Assembly: GCA_018692925.1 (NCBI GenBank)
Contig: JABHLH010000010.1
Coordinates: 1 to 42,306 of the forward strand
Direction: 5' to 3'
Source: an archaeon
GTDB lineage: Archaea > Nanobdellota > Nanobdellia > SCGC-AAA011-G17 > GW2011-AR17
DNA: 42,306 nt
Shown here piece by piece: positions 1,445 through 28,114 of the stretch (position 1 is the first letter of the stretch; every line of letters starts with the position of its first letter). The position numbers and the translations under genes are program-made. The notes beneath the pieces were generated by a model. It was not told where the DNA came from and searched no databases. It saw nothing but the letters and a program-made list of their open reading frames with translations.

Positions 1445-2916
1445 TAGAATACAAAATTAAAAAGGATGGAGTAGAGAAAGTAATAGATATTGAACCAAAA
1501 AAACTTACTGACTTCACTTACATTATTGAAAAACAAGATCCTATGAATGTTCCAGTAAAAATATTTGCTGATAAAAAATTAATTGAAAAAATGCAAAAAG
1601 ATGCTTGTTTGAAACAAGGAGTTAATGTTGCTTGTTTACCAGGTATTAAAAAATTTTCTTTTATGATGCCTGATGCTCACCAAGGGTACGGATTTTCAAT
1701 TGGTGGAGTTGCTGCTTTTGATAAAGAAAATGGAGTAATTAGTCCAGGTGGTATTGGTTTTGATATTAACTGTGGAGTAAGGTTACTAAGAACTGATGCA
1801 AAAAAAGAAGACATTGAACCTAAAATTGAAGAATTACTTGATGCTTTATTCAAAAATATTCCACCAGGTGTAGGAAAACAATCTAAAATTCATTTATCAC
1901 AGACTGAACTTGACAAAGTTTTAAAGAATGGAGCTTCATGGGCAGTTGAAAATAATTTTGGTAACGAAGAAGATTTAGAAAACTGCGAACAAAATGGTAA
2001 AATGGAACTTGCAGATCCAAACAAAGTTTCCACTAGAGCAAAAAAAAGAGGACTAGGTCAATTAGGAACTCTAGGTGCTGGTAATCATTTCTTAGAAATT
2101 CAATATGTTCATAAAATTTTCAATAAAGAAGTTGCTGAAGCTTGGGGAATAAAGGATGAAGGTCAAATATTTGTAATGATCCATTGTGGTTCTCGAGGAC
2201 TAGGTCACCAAGTTTGTTCTGACTACTTAAGAAAAATGGAAGACACATTTCCAGAGATTGCAGATTCACTTCCAGAGAAAGATTTAATTTATGCTCCAGC
2301 GAATAGTCAACTTGCAAAAGATTATTTTGCTGCAATGAGTTGTGCTGCAAATTATGCTTGGGCTAACAGACACATTATTGCACATGAGGTTAGAAACTCA
2401 TTCAAAGAAATATTTCAAGACAAAGTTAAACTACACACTATTTATGATGTAGCTCACAATATTGCAAAATTAGAAAAACATACTATTGATGGCAAAGAAG
2501 AAGAAGTTTGGATTCACAGAAAAGGTGCAACTAGAGCTTTCGCTCCAGGTAGAATAGAACTTTCTGAAAAATACCAAAAAACTGGTCAACCAATTATTCT
2601 TCCAGGTAGTATGGGAACATCATCTTACTTATTAGTTGGAACTCAAGATTCAATGACAGAAACTTTTGGTAGCACAGCTCATGGTGCAGGAAGATTATTA
2701 TCTAGAAAAGCTGCAAACCAAAAATTTAGAGGAGAAAAGATCAAACAAGATTTAGAAAAGCAGCACATTCACATCAAAGCTGCTTCATGGAAAGGTATTA
2801 CTGAAGAAGCACCAGGTGCATATAAAGATGTAGATGAAGTTGTAGAAGTTAGCGATAAATCTGGTATTGGAAAAATAGTAGTACAGCTAAAACCTCTAGG
2901 TGTAATTAAGGGATAA
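1441..2916 (+). CDS. rtcB: RtcB RNA-splicing ligase
   Basis: RtcB is the GTP- and Mn-dependent ligase that joins 2',3'-cyclic phosphate (or 3'-phosphate) and 5'-OH RNA ends, as in tRNA exon ligation after intron removal. The 491 residues match the archaeal family length and no intein is inserted. The metal ligands are visible: Cys111 in DINCGVR, His216 in GAGNHFLE, His248 in MIHCGSRG, His339 in YDVAHN, and the guanylate-accepting His414 in GSTAHGAGR. It is co-transcribed with archease by a 4-nt overlap. The visible tRNA gene in this window has no intron, so the local substrate is not shown. Confidence 0.96.
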   Translation: MIEYKIKKDGVEKVIDIEPKKLTDFTYIIEKQDPMNVPVKIFADKKLIEKMQKDACLKQGVNVACLPGIKKFSFMMPDAHQGYGFSIGGVAAFDKENGVISPGGIGFDINCGVRLLRTDAKKEDIEPKIEELLDALFKNIPPGVGKQSKIHLSQTELDKVLKNGASWAVENNFGNEEDLENCEQNGKMELADPNKVSTRAKKRGLGQLGTLGAGNHFLEIQYVHKIFNKEVAEAWGIKDEGQIFVMIHCGSRGLGHQVCSDYLRKMEDTFPEIADSLPEKDLIYAPANSQLAKDYFAAMSCAANYAWANRHIIAHEVRNSFKEIFQDKVKLHTIYDVAHNIAKLEKHTIDGKEEEVWIHRKGATRAFAPGRIELSEKYQKTGQPIILPGSMGTSSYLLVGTQDSMTETFGSTAHGAGRLLSRKAANQKFRGEKIKQDLEKQHIHIKAASWKGITEEAPGAYKDVDEVVEVSDKSGIGKIVVQLKPLGVIKG

Positions 2917-9307: not shown

Positions 9308-9523
9308 ATGGTAAAGAAAATGAAAAAAAAGAAATCCAATAAATGTAATTGGAAAGGAAATTGTACCACAGGTGATATGGTTTATGGATTAGGATTTATT
9401 GGAGCTTTAATATATAATATAACAATGGCTACAGGATTTTGGTCTGGAGTATTAGGAGTTTTAAAAGCAATAATCTGGCCAGTGTTTGTAATATATCAAT
9501 TAATGAAATTTTTAGGTATGTAG
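9308..9523 (+). CDS. Small membrane protein, 71 residues
   Basis: This is a short basic protein with an N-terminal Lys-rich, Cys-containing stretch (KSNKCNWKGNC, about 9-19). Two hydrophobic segments follow, at about 28-45 and 50-68. Hydrophobicity, a proper start and a stand-alone position support a real gene. I do not recognise a named family. The two N-terminal cysteines are six apart and could bind a metal or pair. A double inverted repeat follows the stop codon. Confidence 0.65.
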   Translation: MVKKMKKKKSNKCNWKGNCTTGDMVYGLGFIGALIYNITMATGFWSGVLGVLKAIIWPVFVIYQLMKFLGM

Positions 9524-9526
9524 ATT

Positions 9527-9567
9527 AGAGAACATAATTCTGTTCTCTTCTTAACATTTCTAATGTT
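9527..9567. terminator. Two consecutive hairpins between convergent genes
   Basis: A perfect 8-bp inverted repeat, AGAGAACA at 9527-9534 with TGTTCTCT at 9541-9548, encloses a 6-nt loop. It is followed by AACAT/ATGTT (9553-9557 and 9563-9567) around a 5-nt loop. The region separates the 3' ends of the small membrane protein gene and the helicase gene. It could act as a bidirectional terminator or 3'-end stabiliser. Archaea mostly terminate at T-tracts, so the role is uncertain. Confidence 0.4.
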
Positions 9568-9593: not shown

Positions 9594-11531
9594 TCACCCA
9601 ACAAAATCTTTCAAATCTCTATTCTGATACCAAGACTTTTCAGCTTTAGGATCTACAAACCCTAACATCTTTTTCATATTCGTTGTAATATAAGAACTAT
9701 GTCTTTTCCCAGAATAACTTAGATATAAAGCTTCTTTTGCTCTACTCAATGCAACATAAAATAATCTTCTTTCTTCATCTTCCTTATCATATTCATCAAC
9801 TTTAATCATATCTACAACTGGATGTTCTGTTGCCTTACAAGGAAAATTCAAACTTGTACAACCAATAACAAAAACAATATTTGCTTCCAAACCTTTAATT
9901 GCATGTACAGTTGCCAAAGTTACTTCTCCTTTTGAAGCATCAATAACTTTTTTCATATCATCTCCTTTCAAAACATGTGGAATTCCCCTTTGCATCATTA
10001 ATGAAGATAAATCTTTCAACTGTTTATTTGTTCGAGCTAAAACAAAAATTTCTTCTTTAGGTATTGAAGCTGCAATAATACTTTGTAAAACAAACTCAAA
10101 CTCTACATCTTCACTTTTAAAATTCACCAATTTCACTTTACTATCTTTCTCAACAACAGCTTCTAAATCTGGCAAAGACATTGCTCTAATTGTTTCATTT
10201 GACAAATCTACAATCCCTTTACTTGACCTATAATTTTTTCTCAAATTAATAATTTCAGCTTCAGGATATTTTGCTTTGAAATCCATAATATAACTTATAT
10301 TAGCTCCTCTCCATCCAAAAATTGCTTGCCTTGGATCACCAACACAAAACAAATGCTCTCTACAAACTAAATCAATAAACTTAATTTGCAAATCATTCAC
10401 ATCTTGATACTCATCAACTAAAACATAATCAAACTCAGGAATTTTATCTTTATTACTTTCAAAAAATTCAATAGTATCTACAATCTGATCCATATGATTC
10501 CTTAAACCGACACTTCTCATTTTCTCATCAATAAATTTACAAATACCATACATCATTTTTGCACTCATTACATCTTTTGCATCAACAGAAAAATCATACA
10601 TTTCTCTTCCTTTACTCTTAAAATAATCAACAATAAAATAACAATCATTCAAAAAAATCCTATACAGTTCCTCATCACTTTTACTTCTCAATTGTGGAAC
10701 TTTAAAATAAGCTTCAATTGCTCCTCTTGGACTTAAATTCAAACTTTCTAAAGCTGCATTTAAAATTTTAATCTTATCAGAATAAGACATCATTCTAACT
10801 ACTTTCCCATAAACTAAATCATTATTCCTCCTAAGAATTTTCTCAGAGAAAGAATTAAAAGTTTCCACATTAACATTACTATATCCTAATGCTGATAATC
10901 TATCTTGCATTTCTTTCCTAGCTTTTCTTGTAAAAGTAATTGCCAAAACTTTTCTAGGATCAACAGCTCTAAACTTTAAAAGGAATTCAATTCTTTTTGT
11001 CAACACTGTTGTCTTACCAGAACCTGCACCTGCAACACACAAAATAACTTTCTTCTGTGAAACAATAGATTTCTTTTGTTCATCATTAAACATATTCAGA
11101 AAAAAATCAAAATTCTTAAACATCAATTGATCTTCTTCACTAATTAGAGTTTCTTCATAAGTTTGCTTTTCTTTCCTATAAAATCCAGGACTCCTCAATT
11201 CTTCTTTCCCTTTTCTTGTCAAACATATAATTTTCCAATATCTATCATTTTTACAAGCAACAAAGCCATCTCTTTCCAAAGTATCAATAACTTCATAAAT
11301 TTCTTCATTAGAATAAGAAAGCACACCAAAACTTATCAACTTAGTTAATTTACTTTTCTTAATAGTTTTATTTTCTTCATTACCTTGCAAAACATCAATC
11401 AAAAGTTTCTTTCCAACAGAAAAAGGAATCTCATTTATTGCTTTTAGAACACAAATAAAAGGTTCCTCTTTTTTTCTAGCCAACAAATCCTCTGACCACT
11501 TAATACTACCATCCTCATTAAATTCAACCAA
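9594..11531 (-). CDS. UvrD/Rep-family SF1A helicase with N-terminal RQC-like domain
   Basis: This is a 3'-5' superfamily 1A DNA helicase. The motor motifs are all present: I, AGAGSGKTT (about 167-175); II, VLVDEYQD; III, GDPRQAIFGWRG; IV, LRKNYRS; V, TVHAIKGLEA; and VI, LFYVALSRAKEALYLS. Before the motor, residues about 25-113 read as an RQC-type winged helix as found in RecQ. The parts are ILKCI-like FICVLKAI, a LIDVLQG.. segment, KLTKLISFGVL, EIYEVIDTLERDGF and a strand ending in ICLTRKGKEEL. No upstream in-frame ATG exists. The start is TTG at 11531, about 34 nt after a minus-strand CTTTTTAAA box, which suits a leaderless mRNA. At 645 residues it is shorter than many UvrD proteins. It should act in repair or replication restart, with the winged helix probably contacting duplex or fork DNA. 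Confidence 0.9.
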   Translation of the reverse strand: MVEFNEDGSIKWSEDLLARKKEEPFICVLKAINEIPFSVGKKLLIDVLQGNEENKTIKKSKLTKLISFGVLSYSNEEIYEVIDTLERDGFVACKNDRYWKIICLTRKGKEELRSPGFYRKEKQTYEETLISEEDQLMFKNFDFFLNMFNDEQKKSIVSQKKVILCVAGAGSGKTTVLTKRIEFLLKFRAVDPRKVLAITFTRKARKEMQDRLSALGYSNVNVETFNSFSEKILRRNNDLVYGKVVRMMSYSDKIKILNAALESLNLSPRGAIEAYFKVPQLRSKSDEELYRIFLNDCYFIVDYFKSKGREMYDFSVDAKDVMSAKMMYGICKFIDEKMRSVGLRNHMDQIVDTIEFFESNKDKIPEFDYVLVDEYQDVNDLQIKFIDLVCREHLFCVGDPRQAIFGWRGANISYIMDFKAKYPEAEIINLRKNYRSSKGIVDLSNETIRAMSLPDLEAVVEKDSKVKLVNFKSEDVEFEFVLQSIIAASIPKEEIFVLARTNKQLKDLSSLMMQRGIPHVLKGDDMKKVIDASKGEVTLATVHAIKGLEANIVFVIGCTSLNFPCKATEHPVVDMIKVDEYDKEDEERRLFYVALSRAKEALYLSYSGKRHSSYITTNMKKMLGFVDPKAEKSWYQNRDLKDFVG

Positions 11532-11580: not shown

Positions 11581-12456
11581 CTAAATATCAATTCCAATAA
11601 GCATTCTGATTATATATCCAATACAGAAACTTACCAGAGCTACACCCATACTAATCAAAAACATTTCCAAAAATCTTCTTCTAAAATTCAAATGTTTTGC
11701 TACTGAGATATAAAAAGTAAACAACAAAATAACAATTGTTGCATTTATCAAAGTCCATGCTAAGCTTGCAAACACATTAGTCAAAACAAAAAATGGAAAT
11801 ATCAAAAATAAAATAGTAATAAAATAAGCTACACCTGTATAAAGTGCAGCAATTGAAGGTTTTTTTTCACTCTCATCAGTTTTCACTGAAAGATATTCTG
11901 AAGCTGCCATTGATAACGAAGCAGCAATACCTGTAACCAAACCTGCAATAGCAATAATATTTGGATTTCTAAATGCAAAAGTAAAACCTGCTAAAGCCCC
12001 GGTCAATTCAACTAAAGCATCATTCAATCCTAAAACTACAGAACCTGCATACATTAATTTTTCTTCTTTAATCAAATCAATTAGTTTACTTTCATGTTTA
12101 ACTTCATCTTTAATAATTGTATTAATTTCTGGAATAACTCTCTTTAATTTTCTATATTCAGAAGCTAAAAAAACTTCACCTTTTTCCATTAACCTTAATC
12201 CAAAAACAACTCCAAAGACTCTTGACAACAAAAGATACCAAAAAATCTTTAATTTATTTGGTTTCACATCAACTTTAGTAAATTTCTTAAAAAACTTATA
12301 ATGCTTCATTTCATCTTTAGCAATTTTCTCAAAAATCTTTTTATTTTTTTTATATTTCACTAATTTTGCTAATTTCAAATAAACATGATACTCAGTTATT
12401 TCACTTACTTGAGCTCTAAGAATACTCTTTTTATGTTCTTCACTTAATTTTACCAC
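11581..12456 (-). CDS. Ferritin-like/CCC1 (VIT1) iron or manganese transporter, MbfA-type
   Basis: An N-terminal four-helix ferritin-like domain (about 140 residues) is followed by a CCC1/VIT1 transporter domain, as in membrane-bound ferritin (MbfA) exporters. Diiron-type ligands are visible in SEITEYH, DEMKHY, MEKGEVF and DEVKHES. The transporter part has GLNDALVELTGALAGFTFA and AASEYLSVKTDES, then three C-terminal membrane helices. Its likely role is sensing and exporting or storing Fe or Mn. An open frame extends upstream to 12618, but that extra part overlaps the divergent small gene. A minus-strand TTTATAAG box at about 12480-12488 points to a leaderless GTG start at 12456 (VVKLSEEH), which I use. 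Confidence 0.85.
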   Translation of the reverse strand: MVKLSEEHKKSILRAQVSEITEYHVYLKLAKLVKYKKNKKIFEKIAKDEMKHYKFFKKFTKVDVKPNKLKIFWYLLLSRVFGVVFGLRLMEKGEVFLASEYRKLKRVIPEINTIIKDEVKHESKLIDLIKEEKLMYAGSVVLGLNDALVELTGALAGFTFAFRNPNIIAIAGLVTGIAASLSMAASEYLSVKTDESEKKPSIAALYTGVAYFITILFLIFPFFVLTNVFASLAWTLINATIVILLFTFYISVAKHLNFRRRFLEMFLISMGVALVSFCIGYIIRMLIGIDI

Positions 12457-12475
12457 ATATAGATACTGTAGAACT

Positions 12476-12530
12476 AAACTTATAAAACTTACTACGGACA
12501 CTGGACATGCCCTCGCGTGGCACTTAAATA
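12476..12530. promoter_or_regulatory. GC-rich inverted repeat between divergent promoters
   Basis: Two TATA-like boxes point outward: TTTATAAG (minus, about 12480-12488) for the transporter and CTTAAATA (plus, about 12523-12530) for the 78-residue protein. Between them, 12494-12523 is strikingly GC-rich (about two thirds G+C by hand count) in an otherwise AT-rich sequence. It carries the inverted repeat TGCC at 12508-12511 and GGCA at 12519-12522, plus a tandem GGACA at 12496-12500 and 12503-12507. The position between two promoters suits an operator for a metal regulator. A small structured RNA is the main alternative. Confidence 0.45.
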
Positions 12531-12566
12531 AGAAATTAACAATCAATAGCAAGGAGGCAAAAAACA

Positions 12567-12803
12567 ATGAAAACAAGCGAATTAGAACAATTTCTACACC
12601 AAGAGGTAGAACTAGCATTTTGGGATGAACTAAAAGAAGAGCATATAATATACGAGGGTAGAATTATAGACATTGATCAAAAAAGCAGGAGTGCAATTAT
12701 AAAAAGAACTGGAGGATTCTCATTATTAGATATTCAAGAAATTGATAGAATTTTCCAAATTGAAAGAAAGATTTCAAACCCTTACTATAAATGTGAAAAT
12801 TAA
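12567..12803 (+). CDS. Small hypothetical protein, SH3/Sm-like barrel possible
   Basis: This is a 78-residue acidic-basic protein with no membrane segment. The middle (EGRIIDIDQKSRSAIIKRTGG, then FSLLDIQEIDRIFQIE) has the alternating strand pattern of a small beta barrel and weakly recalls YolD-like or Sm-like domains. That is a guess. A strong AAGGAGG about 10 nt before the ATG supports the start, unlike most genes here. It is divergent from the metal transporter across the GC-rich inverted repeat, so the two may share control. Confidence 0.65.
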   Translation: MKTSELEQFLHQEVELAFWDELKEEHIIYEGRIIDIDQKSRSAIIKRTGGFSLLDIQEIDRIFQIERKISNPYYKCEN

Positions 12804-25617: not shown

Positions 25618-25878
25618 TTACATAACCTCTACTTTTTTACCTACACTCTGTCCTGGTAAACCTCTGTCAAGCATAATAGCTCTAACACATCCATTATTAC
25701 CATGTGCAGCTCTAATTTCTCCAACAATCTTTTTACCAGATTCTGTAGTATAAACTATTTTTTTACCAACTAATTTTGTTGCTTTCTCTCTATTATCTGA
25801 ACCTTCTACACCAATAATCATGTGTTTATTGTTCTGTCTTGTTCGACTTCTTCTATAATTGTGAATTAAACCTTCCAT
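25618..25878 (-). CDS. rpl35ae: Ribosomal protein eL33 (L35Ae)
   Basis: This is a large-subunit ribosomal protein shared by archaea and eukaryotes. Its 86 residues include the family core GKKIVYTTESGKKIVGEI, a HGNNGCVRAIML stretch and the conserved RGLPGQSVGKKVEV end. Its start overlaps the 3' end of the nucleotidyltransferase gene by 13 nt, and uL16 follows with no gap. That makes one operon of nucleotidyltransferase, eL33 and uL16. Confidence 0.94.
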   Translation of the reverse strand: MEGLIHNYRRSRTRQNNKHMIIGVEGSDNREKATKLVGKKIVYTTESGKKIVGEIRAAHGNNGCVRAIMLDRGLPGQSVGKKVEVM

Positions 25879-27737
25879 ATTAACTCTATTTCCTCTCCAA
25901 CGATATCTTTTACTGCCTCAAAGAACTGAGGTTTGATTAATCTGTTATGTGGCAATTTTACATCCTTTAAATATTTTTCGAACTCATTAACATTACTTTT
26001 TTTCACATTTACCATCATTCCATCCTTTGAAATCTGTCCAATAAAGACTTCTTCCCTCTTAGATGTGTCTTTTACAACAAATGCTACTTTCTCTAATAAC
26101 ACTAATTCACCCTGTTTCTTGCCATAATTAAACGGAATCTTGAATTTACTATATTTTTCAACTCTCTTTCTATCAAGAACACTCATCATCATTCTAACAA
26201 ATTCTCTTGCTTCTCTTCTAACTTTGTTAACTTCTTGCTTGCTTAACTTTTTTGCATCATAATCTTTCTTTGCTTTAATCACTGCATTCAACATTTTATG
26301 ATATTTTAAAGAGATTTTTTCTTCATCACAAACATGTTTTTTGAACAATTCAGGCAATTTTGCAACAGTAATTCCTTTAACATCTTTTTCTTGAAGTAAG
26401 TCTCTTACAAGATTCAAACAAGTACTATGAACATCTACAATATTTTCTTTTTCATTTCTTTCTTCAATAGCTTTGAACAATTCTTTAATTCTTGCTAAAT
26501 AATCTCTACAATCTTTAATCAAAGTATCAACTTCAGATCCTGAAATTTCTTTCAATCTTTTATGCTCGATATCTTTGAATGTACTTCTAATTTTTTCCAA
26601 AATGTCAACATATTTTTGTTCTAACATTTTTTCTTTTTTAACATAAATTTCTTCCATCAACTTAACAGCTTCTTTAGGTGTTGGAGGTGGAATACCATAA
26701 AGCATAAGAGCAGCTTGTGTTGGATTCATAACTGCATAGAACAAATCTTCTCCAACTACACTCAATAATTTATGTTTTGTTCGATCTAATAATTTATCTC
26801 CAACGTCCATATTCATATCAATTGCTTCAGGTGAAGGTTTAATTCTTCCCATCTGTAAAAGTAATTTCCAAGGCATAAAAACACCTCTATCATAGAGAGG
26901 AACTCCATCTCTAAGCATTGTAAATATAACTGGATTTGCATCTTTCAAATTTTCCCAGAAATCTGTCAAGATATAAGTTTGAATATGGAAATCAGCTTTA
27001 ACTCCTGTTTTCTTTCCTGCTTCGTGTCCATAATTAATAATAATTCCTCTTAGTCTATCTCTTAATTCAAATCTAGACATAGATTTAACATCAGTATCGT
27101 CAATAACAATAGCTACATCAATATCATTTGGTGCTGCATCTCCTCTAAACAAACTACCAACTGCAATATAACTAACAACATATTTTTCGAATTTCTGAAC
27201 AACCATATTTCTATGTAGCTCAGCAACTTTCAAAGCAGATAATAGTCCTCTATCGAACAACAAACCAGAATGAGCTACCATTTTGATAACATCATATTTA
27301 GCATCATAACAAGCATCTTTTAATTCAGAAATCAAAATTACTTGAGGTTTTAGATTTTTATCTAATTCTTTAGCAACTTTATTAGTAGCATCTGTTAACT
27401 TAACAATTAACTCTCTTCGAGTCATCTTTTTAACATCACCATCATCAACTAAAACTAATAGAGGTACTTCCTCAGGATTTTGTTTAGCTGGTGCCGCAGG
27501 AACTCCAGGAAGACCTTGAGCTGCTGGCATTGGTGGCAAAGGTGGTAATATAGCAATTCCAGTAATATATTTGTCAAAATTCTTTAAACATTCTTTAATA
27601 AATTTATCAATATTTTTCTTATTATCATCATACTTTTTTTGATATTCAGGACTCAAGGGAGGTAATTCTTCACCAGGTTTATTTGCCCCAATTTCCTTTT
27701 TCTTAATTTTTGCTTTAGAAGCCTTTTTCGCTGCCAT
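25866..27737 (-). CDS. Protein with duplicated nucleotidyltransferase domain
   Basis: This large protein is about 623 residues from the ATG at 27737, the start supported by a CTTTATAAAGG box about 30 nt upstream (an earlier in-frame codon at 27788 lies beyond it). A Lys-rich N-terminus and a Pro-rich linker lead to two similar modules. Module 1 (about 93-175) has LLVLVDDGDVKKMTRREL and SGLLFDRGLL. Module 2 (about 187-290) has VGSLFRGDAAPNDIDVAIV, IDDTDVKSMSRFEL and DGVPLYDRGVF. Only module 2 keeps the Pol-beta/MNT residues: GS, DID and a third acidic in ADFHIQ. A long helical region and a basic C-terminal domain follow. It may transfer a nucleotide to RNA or protein. It is co-transcribed with eL33 and uL16. 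Confidence 0.8.
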   Translation of the reverse strand: MAAKKASKAKIKKKEIGANKPGEELPPLSPEYQKKYDDNKKNIDKFIKECLKNFDKYITGIAILPPLPPMPAAQGLPGVPAAPAKQNPEEVPLLVLVDDGDVKKMTRRELIVKLTDATNKVAKELDKNLKPQVILISELKDACYDAKYDVIKMVAHSGLLFDRGLLSALKVAELHRNMVVQKFEKYVVSYIAVGSLFRGDAAPNDIDVAIVIDDTDVKSMSRFELRDRLRGIIINYGHEAGKKTGVKADFHIQTYILTDFWENLKDANPVIFTMLRDGVPLYDRGVFMPWKLLLQMGRIKPSPEAIDMNMDVGDKLLDRTKHKLLSVVGEDLFYAVMNPTQAALMLYGIPPPTPKEAVKLMEEIYVKKEKMLEQKYVDILEKIRSTFKDIEHKRLKEISGSEVDTLIKDCRDYLARIKELFKAIEERNEKENIVDVHSTCLNLVRDLLQEKDVKGITVAKLPELFKKHVCDEEKISLKYHKMLNAVIKAKKDYDAKKLSKQEVNKVRREAREFVRMMMSVLDRKRVEKYSKFKIPFNYGKKQGELVLLEKVAFVVKDTSKREEVFIGQISKDGMMVNVKKSNVNEFEKYLKDVKLPHNRLIKPQFFEAVKDIVGEEIELIWKV

Positions 27738-27781
27738 TTTTACATTACTTTGATTTAAATTTGCCTTTATAAAGCTTTCGC

Positions 27782-28114
27782 CTAACACTGATATCCTAAA
27801 TTTACAATAGCTTCTTCCAAATTTCTAACAGAAACAGCCATATCAAATCCATTGATTATATCTCCAAAACAAGATTTAGGTATCCAATATTTAACTCCAG
27901 AAAGATCTTTATCTATTTCAAATTCTGAGGAATCAAAATATAACTGATTTTTAAGAGCATATTTAATAATTTGATCAGAATCTGGAGTTGATAAACCAGT
28001 ACCATCAAAAGCTAAATTTAACATTTCACTAATTTGAGCAGCTGTATAAGCAAATTCCCCAATTTGTCTTCTTATCAATAAAGAAGTTCTTAAAGTCATT
28101 CTATCTGGCATCAT
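27782..28114 (-). CDS. Hypothetical protein, 110 residues
   Basis: This is a small soluble protein with no family I recognise. The N-terminal half (LRTSLLIRRQIGEFAYTAAQISEML) is helical and could be a winged-helix start. The C-terminal half has short strands and a GYQC end. Its ATG overlaps the translin stop by 4 nt (ATGA), so translation is coupled to translin. It ends about 45 nt before the nucleotidyltransferase start, within that gene's promoter. Confidence 0.62.
   Translation of the reverse strand: MMPDRMTLRTSLLIRRQIGEFAYTAAQISEMLNLAFDGTGLSTPDSDQIIKYALKNQLYFDSSEFEIDKDLSGVKYWIPKSCFGDIINGFDMAVSVRNLEEAIVNLGYQC

Follow-up and report, generated by a model that had tools for sequence, protein, structure and literature searches.

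The RecQ helicase family, which includes the Bloom and Werner syndrome enzymes, and the UvrD family presumably share a 3'–5' polarity. In UvrD, PcrA, and Rep proper, the motor contains a 2B subdomain, placed between its motifs IV and V, a feature that is less conserved in other SF1A helicases. The element that separates the strands is a hairpin of subdomain 2A in UvrD and the wing of the RQC domain in BLM, and the RQC domain has been called unique to the RecQ family (PMC4212688). In WRN, the strands are separated by two wing-tip residues, Phe1037 and Met1038, and DNA binding relies on the alpha2-alpha3 loop, which contains Gly988 and Ser989; the role of Phe1037- and Gly988-type positions in WRN and BLM is known from structure and mutagenesis (PMC4212688). 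Outside RecQ, RQC has already been curated as a stand-alone family (NF041107).

Here, we analyzed a gene of an archaeal window (the whole stretch of DNA under study, 42,306 nucleotides) that brings an RQC domain and a UvrD motor together in a single protein. The gene occupies positions 9594–11531 of the reverse strand, as do all of its features given below, and encodes 645 amino acids from a TTG start, which is backed by an ortholog (G056) that begins with ATG and reads MQMEFNDDGSL versus (L)VEFNEDGSI in the window. The original prediction had assigned residues about 25–113 to an RQC winged helix and placed all SF1A motor motifs downstream of it, and both points are borne out: Pfam recognizes RQC (PF09382) at residues 28–113 (E 6.8e-8; 32.8 bits, for a curated cut-off of 23 bits), followed by UvrD-helicase (PF00580, E 4.7e-48) and UvrD_C (PF13361, E 2.5e-31). 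In the 985-kb assembly of the window genome, this gene encodes both the sole RQC domain and the sole full UvrD motor. Like the RecQ enzymes (E. coli RecQ, WRN, BLM), the family defined by this protein has an RQC with a beta-wing and, in most relatives, a C-terminal HRDC domain. Unlike RecQ, in which an SF2 motor with a zinc-binding subdomain precedes the RQC, the family has an SF1A/UvrD motor, carries the RQC before it, and possesses no zinc domain.

The RQC domain itself (residues about 24–115; 11187–11462) is also recognized by Pfam in orthologs that are 90% (G001, E 5.7e-8) and 54% (G004, E 2.1e-5) identical to the window protein. For the same region, NCBIfam reports RQC-minor-1 (NF041107, E 3.2e-5) and RecQ (E 6.4e-4, residues 28–103 against RecQ 408–483), each under its cut-off. 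RQC-minor-1 resembles the window domain in being an RQC outside RecQ, albeit through a weak match, and differs from it in that its 173-position model describes a protein that binds DNA but has no helicase motor. When a profile of seven N-terminal regions was compared with the PDB, MarR-type winged helices and the WRN RQC were retrieved, with MarR-type proteins as the top sequence matches. On this basis, the domain could be read as a protein-docking winged helix, recruiting a recombinase, SSB/RPA, or RNA polymerase, for which DNA contact would be secondary; winged helices, RQC included, can indeed bind proteins too. We regard this reading as improbable, because the MarR matches span the helix-wing part only, when the WRN RQC is aligned across almost the entire domain, because a fold search with the whole domain ranks RecQ and WRN first, and because the DNA-contact positions of WRN are largely kept.

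Regarding the fold, AlphaFold models residues 1–145 with a mean pLDDT of 74 (76–90 per block across residues 21–110), and the helix order together with a predicted hairpin (E91–96/E99–104 by DSSP; residues 91–104, 11220–11261), the putative beta-wing, describes a winged helix. The comparison with RecQ RQC structures that had been proposed alongside the original prediction came out in its favor: the seven best Foldseek matches in the PDB are all RQC domains of RecQ or WRN, namely 1oyw and 1oyy (E. coli-type RecQ core), 4tmu and 6crm (C. sakazakii RecQ), 6yhr and 3aaf (WRN), and 4q48 (D. radiodurans RecQ), with MarR regulators coming next. Their rmsd ranges from 1.7 to 3.9 A and the best E-value is 1.4e-3, none being under 1e-3, modest values that may be expected given the small size of the domain. 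This whole-domain ranking led us to discard a simple MarR-like winged helix, and the RQC assignment is secure when sequence and predicted fold are considered jointly. The full-length model, whose confidence is moderate (pLDDT 69.7, with residues 1–41 and most of the linker 111–142 below 50), does not fix where the RQC stands with respect to the motor; structure prediction used an alignment of 9 rows.

The residues of the RQC that matter in WRN and BLM can be followed through the family. At the position of WRN Phe1037, 36 of the 38 members carry an aromatic residue (33 have Phe and 3 have Tyr, among them the window protein with Tyr98, 11238–11240, by alignment to WRN), and the residue that follows is often Trp. 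The glycine of the alpha2-alpha3 loop, at the position of WRN Gly988 and BLM Gly1120, is kept in all 37 members compared (Gly50 in the window protein, 11382–11384), whereas the position of WRN Ser989 is variable and holds Asn51 in the window protein.

The motor (residues about 146–610; 9702–11096) comprises subdomains 1A, 1B, and 2A, but no 2B. SF1A motifs I–VI are all present and invariant in an alignment of nine members (A2), among them the Walker A motif GAGSGKT (residues 168–174; 11010–11030) and motif II/Walker B, DEYQ (residues 373–376; 10404–10415). By sequence, the closest PDB entry is PcrA (E 5.8e-46), and PcrA/UvrD are also the best matches by fold. The family therefore shares with UvrD, PcrA, and Rep the motor motifs and the 1A/1B/2A core; it differs from them by the lack of 2B and of the hairpin bearing Tyr621, and by the gain of an N-terminal RQC and, in most relatives, of an HRDC. 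Indeed, motifs IV and V are separated by 36–41 residues in 39/39 RQC-bearing records measured (about 32 distinct genes) and by 38 in the window protein, against 180–198 in most PcrA/UvrD types, 200 in E. coli UvrD, and mostly 111–138 in actinobacterial UvrD-HRDC proteins. In the phmmer alignment, residue 524 pairs with PcrA 383 and the match resumes at PcrA 545, so that PcrA 384–544 are absent; relative to E. coli UvrD, segments 377–504 and 518–551 find no counterpart at the site of the missing 2B, residues 521–534 (9930–9971). In addition, the segment corresponding to E. coli UvrD 619–628 (RLYGKEVYHR, with Tyr621) is deleted throughout the family, in the window protein at residues 609–611 (9699–9707).

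Downstream of the motor, the window protein ends in a short tail (residues 616–645; 9597–9686) in which Pfam finds no HRDC, the domain present there in most relatives. Pfam detects HRDC in G004 (E 3.3e-23), in G056 (E 3.7e-22), and in 6/9 members of alignment A2; L010 and L011 carry HRDC. In G056, a contig end interrupts the gene, so that its RQC and its UvrD-HRDC part lie on different contigs. The domain is missing too in the 90% identical relative of the window protein and in several other members. From these sequences, the architecture of the family is RQC-UvrD-HRDC, and HRDC was probably lost in the lineage of the window, since G004, its nearest relative within the family outside the genus, has it, and, from the tree, separately elsewhere.

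Among 371 sampled genomes of the window's archaeal phylum that were searched with a profile, 58 contain the family (40/259 genera), almost always as one full-length frame. By model coverage, 55 of the 58 genomes have the RQC, 43 the HRDC-containing C-terminal part, and 42 both, so that the co-occurrence of RQC with a UvrD helicase in archaea, which had been suggested as something to look for, extends to 55/371 genomes. Since these genomes are mostly metagenome-derived, an assembly artefact or an accidental gene fusion could come to mind, but the chance of this is next to nil, as independent orthologs exist and RQC-UvrD frames are full length in about 52 sampled genomes (the exceptions among the 55 being G160 and G197, which contig ends break up, and G121, which is located at a contig end). 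Complete frames are likewise found in six genomes with GTDB names (L026–L029, L031, and L033). When 84,980 species genomes were scanned, the only route by which other archaeal phyla were covered, at least 8 loci showed 46–54% identity, against 33% or less for ordinary UvrD proteins, among the matches listed. Homologs above 45% identity, again among the matches listed, are of Woesearchaeota, Nanoarchaeota, or Pacearchaeota type, with one each labeled "archaeon," Nanohalarchaeota, and Thermoplasmatota. Judged by the relatives of its helicase, the window organism is a DPANN archaeon.

In a phylogeny of 46 motor domains, all 15 family members included form one clade (support 100/100, stem 1.22). 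The actinobacterial UvrD2 (UvrD-HRDC) proteins, which resemble the family in having a UvrD motor followed by HRDC, form a separate clade (97/99), and E. coli UvrD and Rep group with PcrA types. UvrD2 further differs by having no RQC and by mostly keeping a reduced 2B, and the window copy for its part is without HRDC; a cysteine motif between motor and HRDC occurs in L063 and is absent from the family rows inspected. The idea that the HRDC form descends from the UvrD2 of actinobacteria was not retained, the tree giving two separate clades without resolving their order. A viral origin was set aside as well, viral contigs (as distinct from plasmids) having yielded generic UvrD only, without RQC. 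E. coli helicase IV (HelD) sits on a long branch of uncertain place outside the family. It resembles the family in its 2B-less UvrD-type core, its shortened 2A hairpin, which misses the Tyr621 element, and an N-terminal accessory region, yet this region is not reported as an RQC and the enzyme has no HRDC.

How, then, might these proteins unwind DNA? We favor, with a probability of roughly 0.6, a 3'–5' helicase in which the duplex grip and the strand-separating pin have moved from 2B and 2A to the RQC, mainly because the motor's own pin is lost while the added domain keeps an aromatic one. According to this proposal, the SF1A motor (1A/2A) would pull itself along single-stranded DNA in an ATP-driven manner, in the 3' to 5' direction expected from the SF1A rule; the N-terminal RQC would be seated on the duplex or branch point via its alpha2-alpha3 loop; and the aromatic tip of the beta-wing would be pushed into the last base pair and serve as the pin. 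The tasks of UvrD's 2A pin (Tyr621) and 2B duplex grip would thereby fall to a distinct RQC module, as they do in WRN and BLM. Activity as a monomer is also predicted, since the inhibitory 2B is absent and deletion of 2B activates Rep monomers (PMC13238157).

The same losses lend themselves to another reading, in which the RQC would replace 2B solely to clamp the duplex ahead of the motor or to recognize branches, conferring structure specificity, and the motor itself would split the strands, as other UvrD-type enzymes devoid of 2B, such as E. coli helicase IV, presumably do. The invariance of the alpha2-alpha3 loop glycine fits such a clamp, and UvrD-type motors without a 2B have a precedent: helicase IV lacks both 2B and the Tyr621 hairpin with no RQC reported, so that such losses alone do not imply a transfer to the RQC, and a minimal SF1A core may need no pin at all. 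Moreover, the RQC is mostly or wholly absent in a few family members (L032, G194, G401, and G257), whose motor can evidently do without it. We nevertheless consider a mere clamp somewhat unlikely, because an aromatic wing tip in 36/38 members exceeds what plain duplex binding needs. In the original prediction, an RQC in front of a UvrD motor was taken as another way of engaging a fork or duplex; the suggestion has gained strength from the C-terminal HRDC of most relatives and from the lost 2B and Tyr621 hairpin, both of which touch the duplex in UvrD, and we keep it as an inference.

The surroundings of the gene were considered from the perspective of a possible partner. Upstream lies a gene (11581–12618, reverse strand) whose product joins a rubrerythrin/ferritin-like domain to a VIT1-type metal transporter, and downstream lies a gene for a small protein without Pfam match. 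Because GajB of the Gabija system is a UvrD-like helicase, and PADLOC GajB profiles match the window protein down to E 1.8e-58, membership in an anti-phage system such as Gabija could be envisaged; it is very improbable and was rejected, as the matches are restricted to the generic UvrD motor and neither neighbor is a GajA-type nuclease. Orthologs are, besides, spread across many chromosomes, and an all-against-all comparison of the neighbors at 38 family loci returned no recurrent one beyond close relatives and shadow frames, which also speaks against a conserved operon partner. In a single Woesearchaeota case, the end of a Rad50/SMC-like ATPase, recognized by eye (L026:170-1378, forward strand), lies directly upstream of the RQC-UvrD-HRDC gene. 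In the window, the helicase gene converges on its downstream neighbor (gene ends at 9523 and 9594), and between them stands a 22-base inverted repeat, perfect except for its central bases (AGAGAACATAATTCTGTTCTCT, 9527–9548), which from its sequence is probably a shared transcription terminator. Elsewhere in the window, adjoining ORFs of 640 and 110 amino acids (25866–28114, reverse strand) have no Pfam match at E 0.001.

From the standpoint of the helicase repertoire, neither RecQ (with no RecQ_Zn_bind match in the genome) nor Hel308 (best match 81 bits, for a cut-off of 887) was found in the window genome. For an archaeon, it is thus unusually short of fork and recombination helicases, and the RQC-UvrD protein is its most obvious candidate for such work. 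Across the phylum, however, the family is not exclusive with either enzyme, so that a replacement story is not supported. RecQ occurs in 8/371 genomes and is rare either way (1/58 with the family, 7/313 without, p = 1), and Hel308 is found in 41/58 genomes with the family and 192/313 without (p = 0.19), in the wrong direction for a replacement.

Two further observations were made on these genomes. In many genomes of the class, Hel308 is seemingly split inside its motor into two unlinked genes, the N-terminal piece covering model positions 1–218 (235-aa frame) and the C-terminal piece 227–720 (519-aa frame). In G119, which is a single contig, they lie about 37 kb apart, at C1:1150932-1151591 on the forward strand (L191) and C1:1188814-1190322 on the reverse strand (L189), and the split is also seen in G137 (L188, L193) and G195 (L190, L192). 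Another use of RQC outside RecQ appears in G008 and G014, in which an RQC stands alone except for an additional part that looks like a helix-turn-helix (L022, L023); at L023, this 211-aa protein (1489–2124, forward strand) directly follows an SNF2-like helicase gene.

As to novelty, the concern that the architecture might already be well documented was not substantiated, as no description of an RQC on an SF1 helicase was found in the open-access papers searched (as distinct from subscription papers and InterPro architecture listings). The protein consists of known domains on a known motor, in a new arrangement that carries a testable mechanistic meaning. The junction processing of RecQ has been ascribed to an unwinding module separate from the translocation module, unlike in UvrD (PMC4212688), and the family offers a natural test of this idea, with an RQC placed, in reversed order, on an unrelated motor that has lost its own module. 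The family is also relevant to the current debate over the part played by 2B in UvrD-type enzymes, active or inhibitory (PMC13238157), because it has shed 2B in the course of evolution and retains an intact motor.

More tentatively, and as a possibility that we rate below even odds, an SF1A motor stripped of 2B and the 2A hairpin and given an RQC wing as pin and an HRDC as extra DNA-binding tail could be a functional counterpart of RecQ in a large group of DPANN archaea, able to process branched DNA, for instance Holliday junctions, which PcrA handles poorly. Under the favored pin-transfer reading, the likely role of these proteins would be to unwind or remodel forks as well as intermediates of recombination, work of the RecQ kind, in cells most of which have no RecQ. 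Overall, our observations suggest that, in many DPANN archaea, whose genomes are small, a RecQ-like enzyme has been reassembled during evolution on another type of motor, and they add a candidate recombination or fork helicase for archaea whose repair systems are poorly known.
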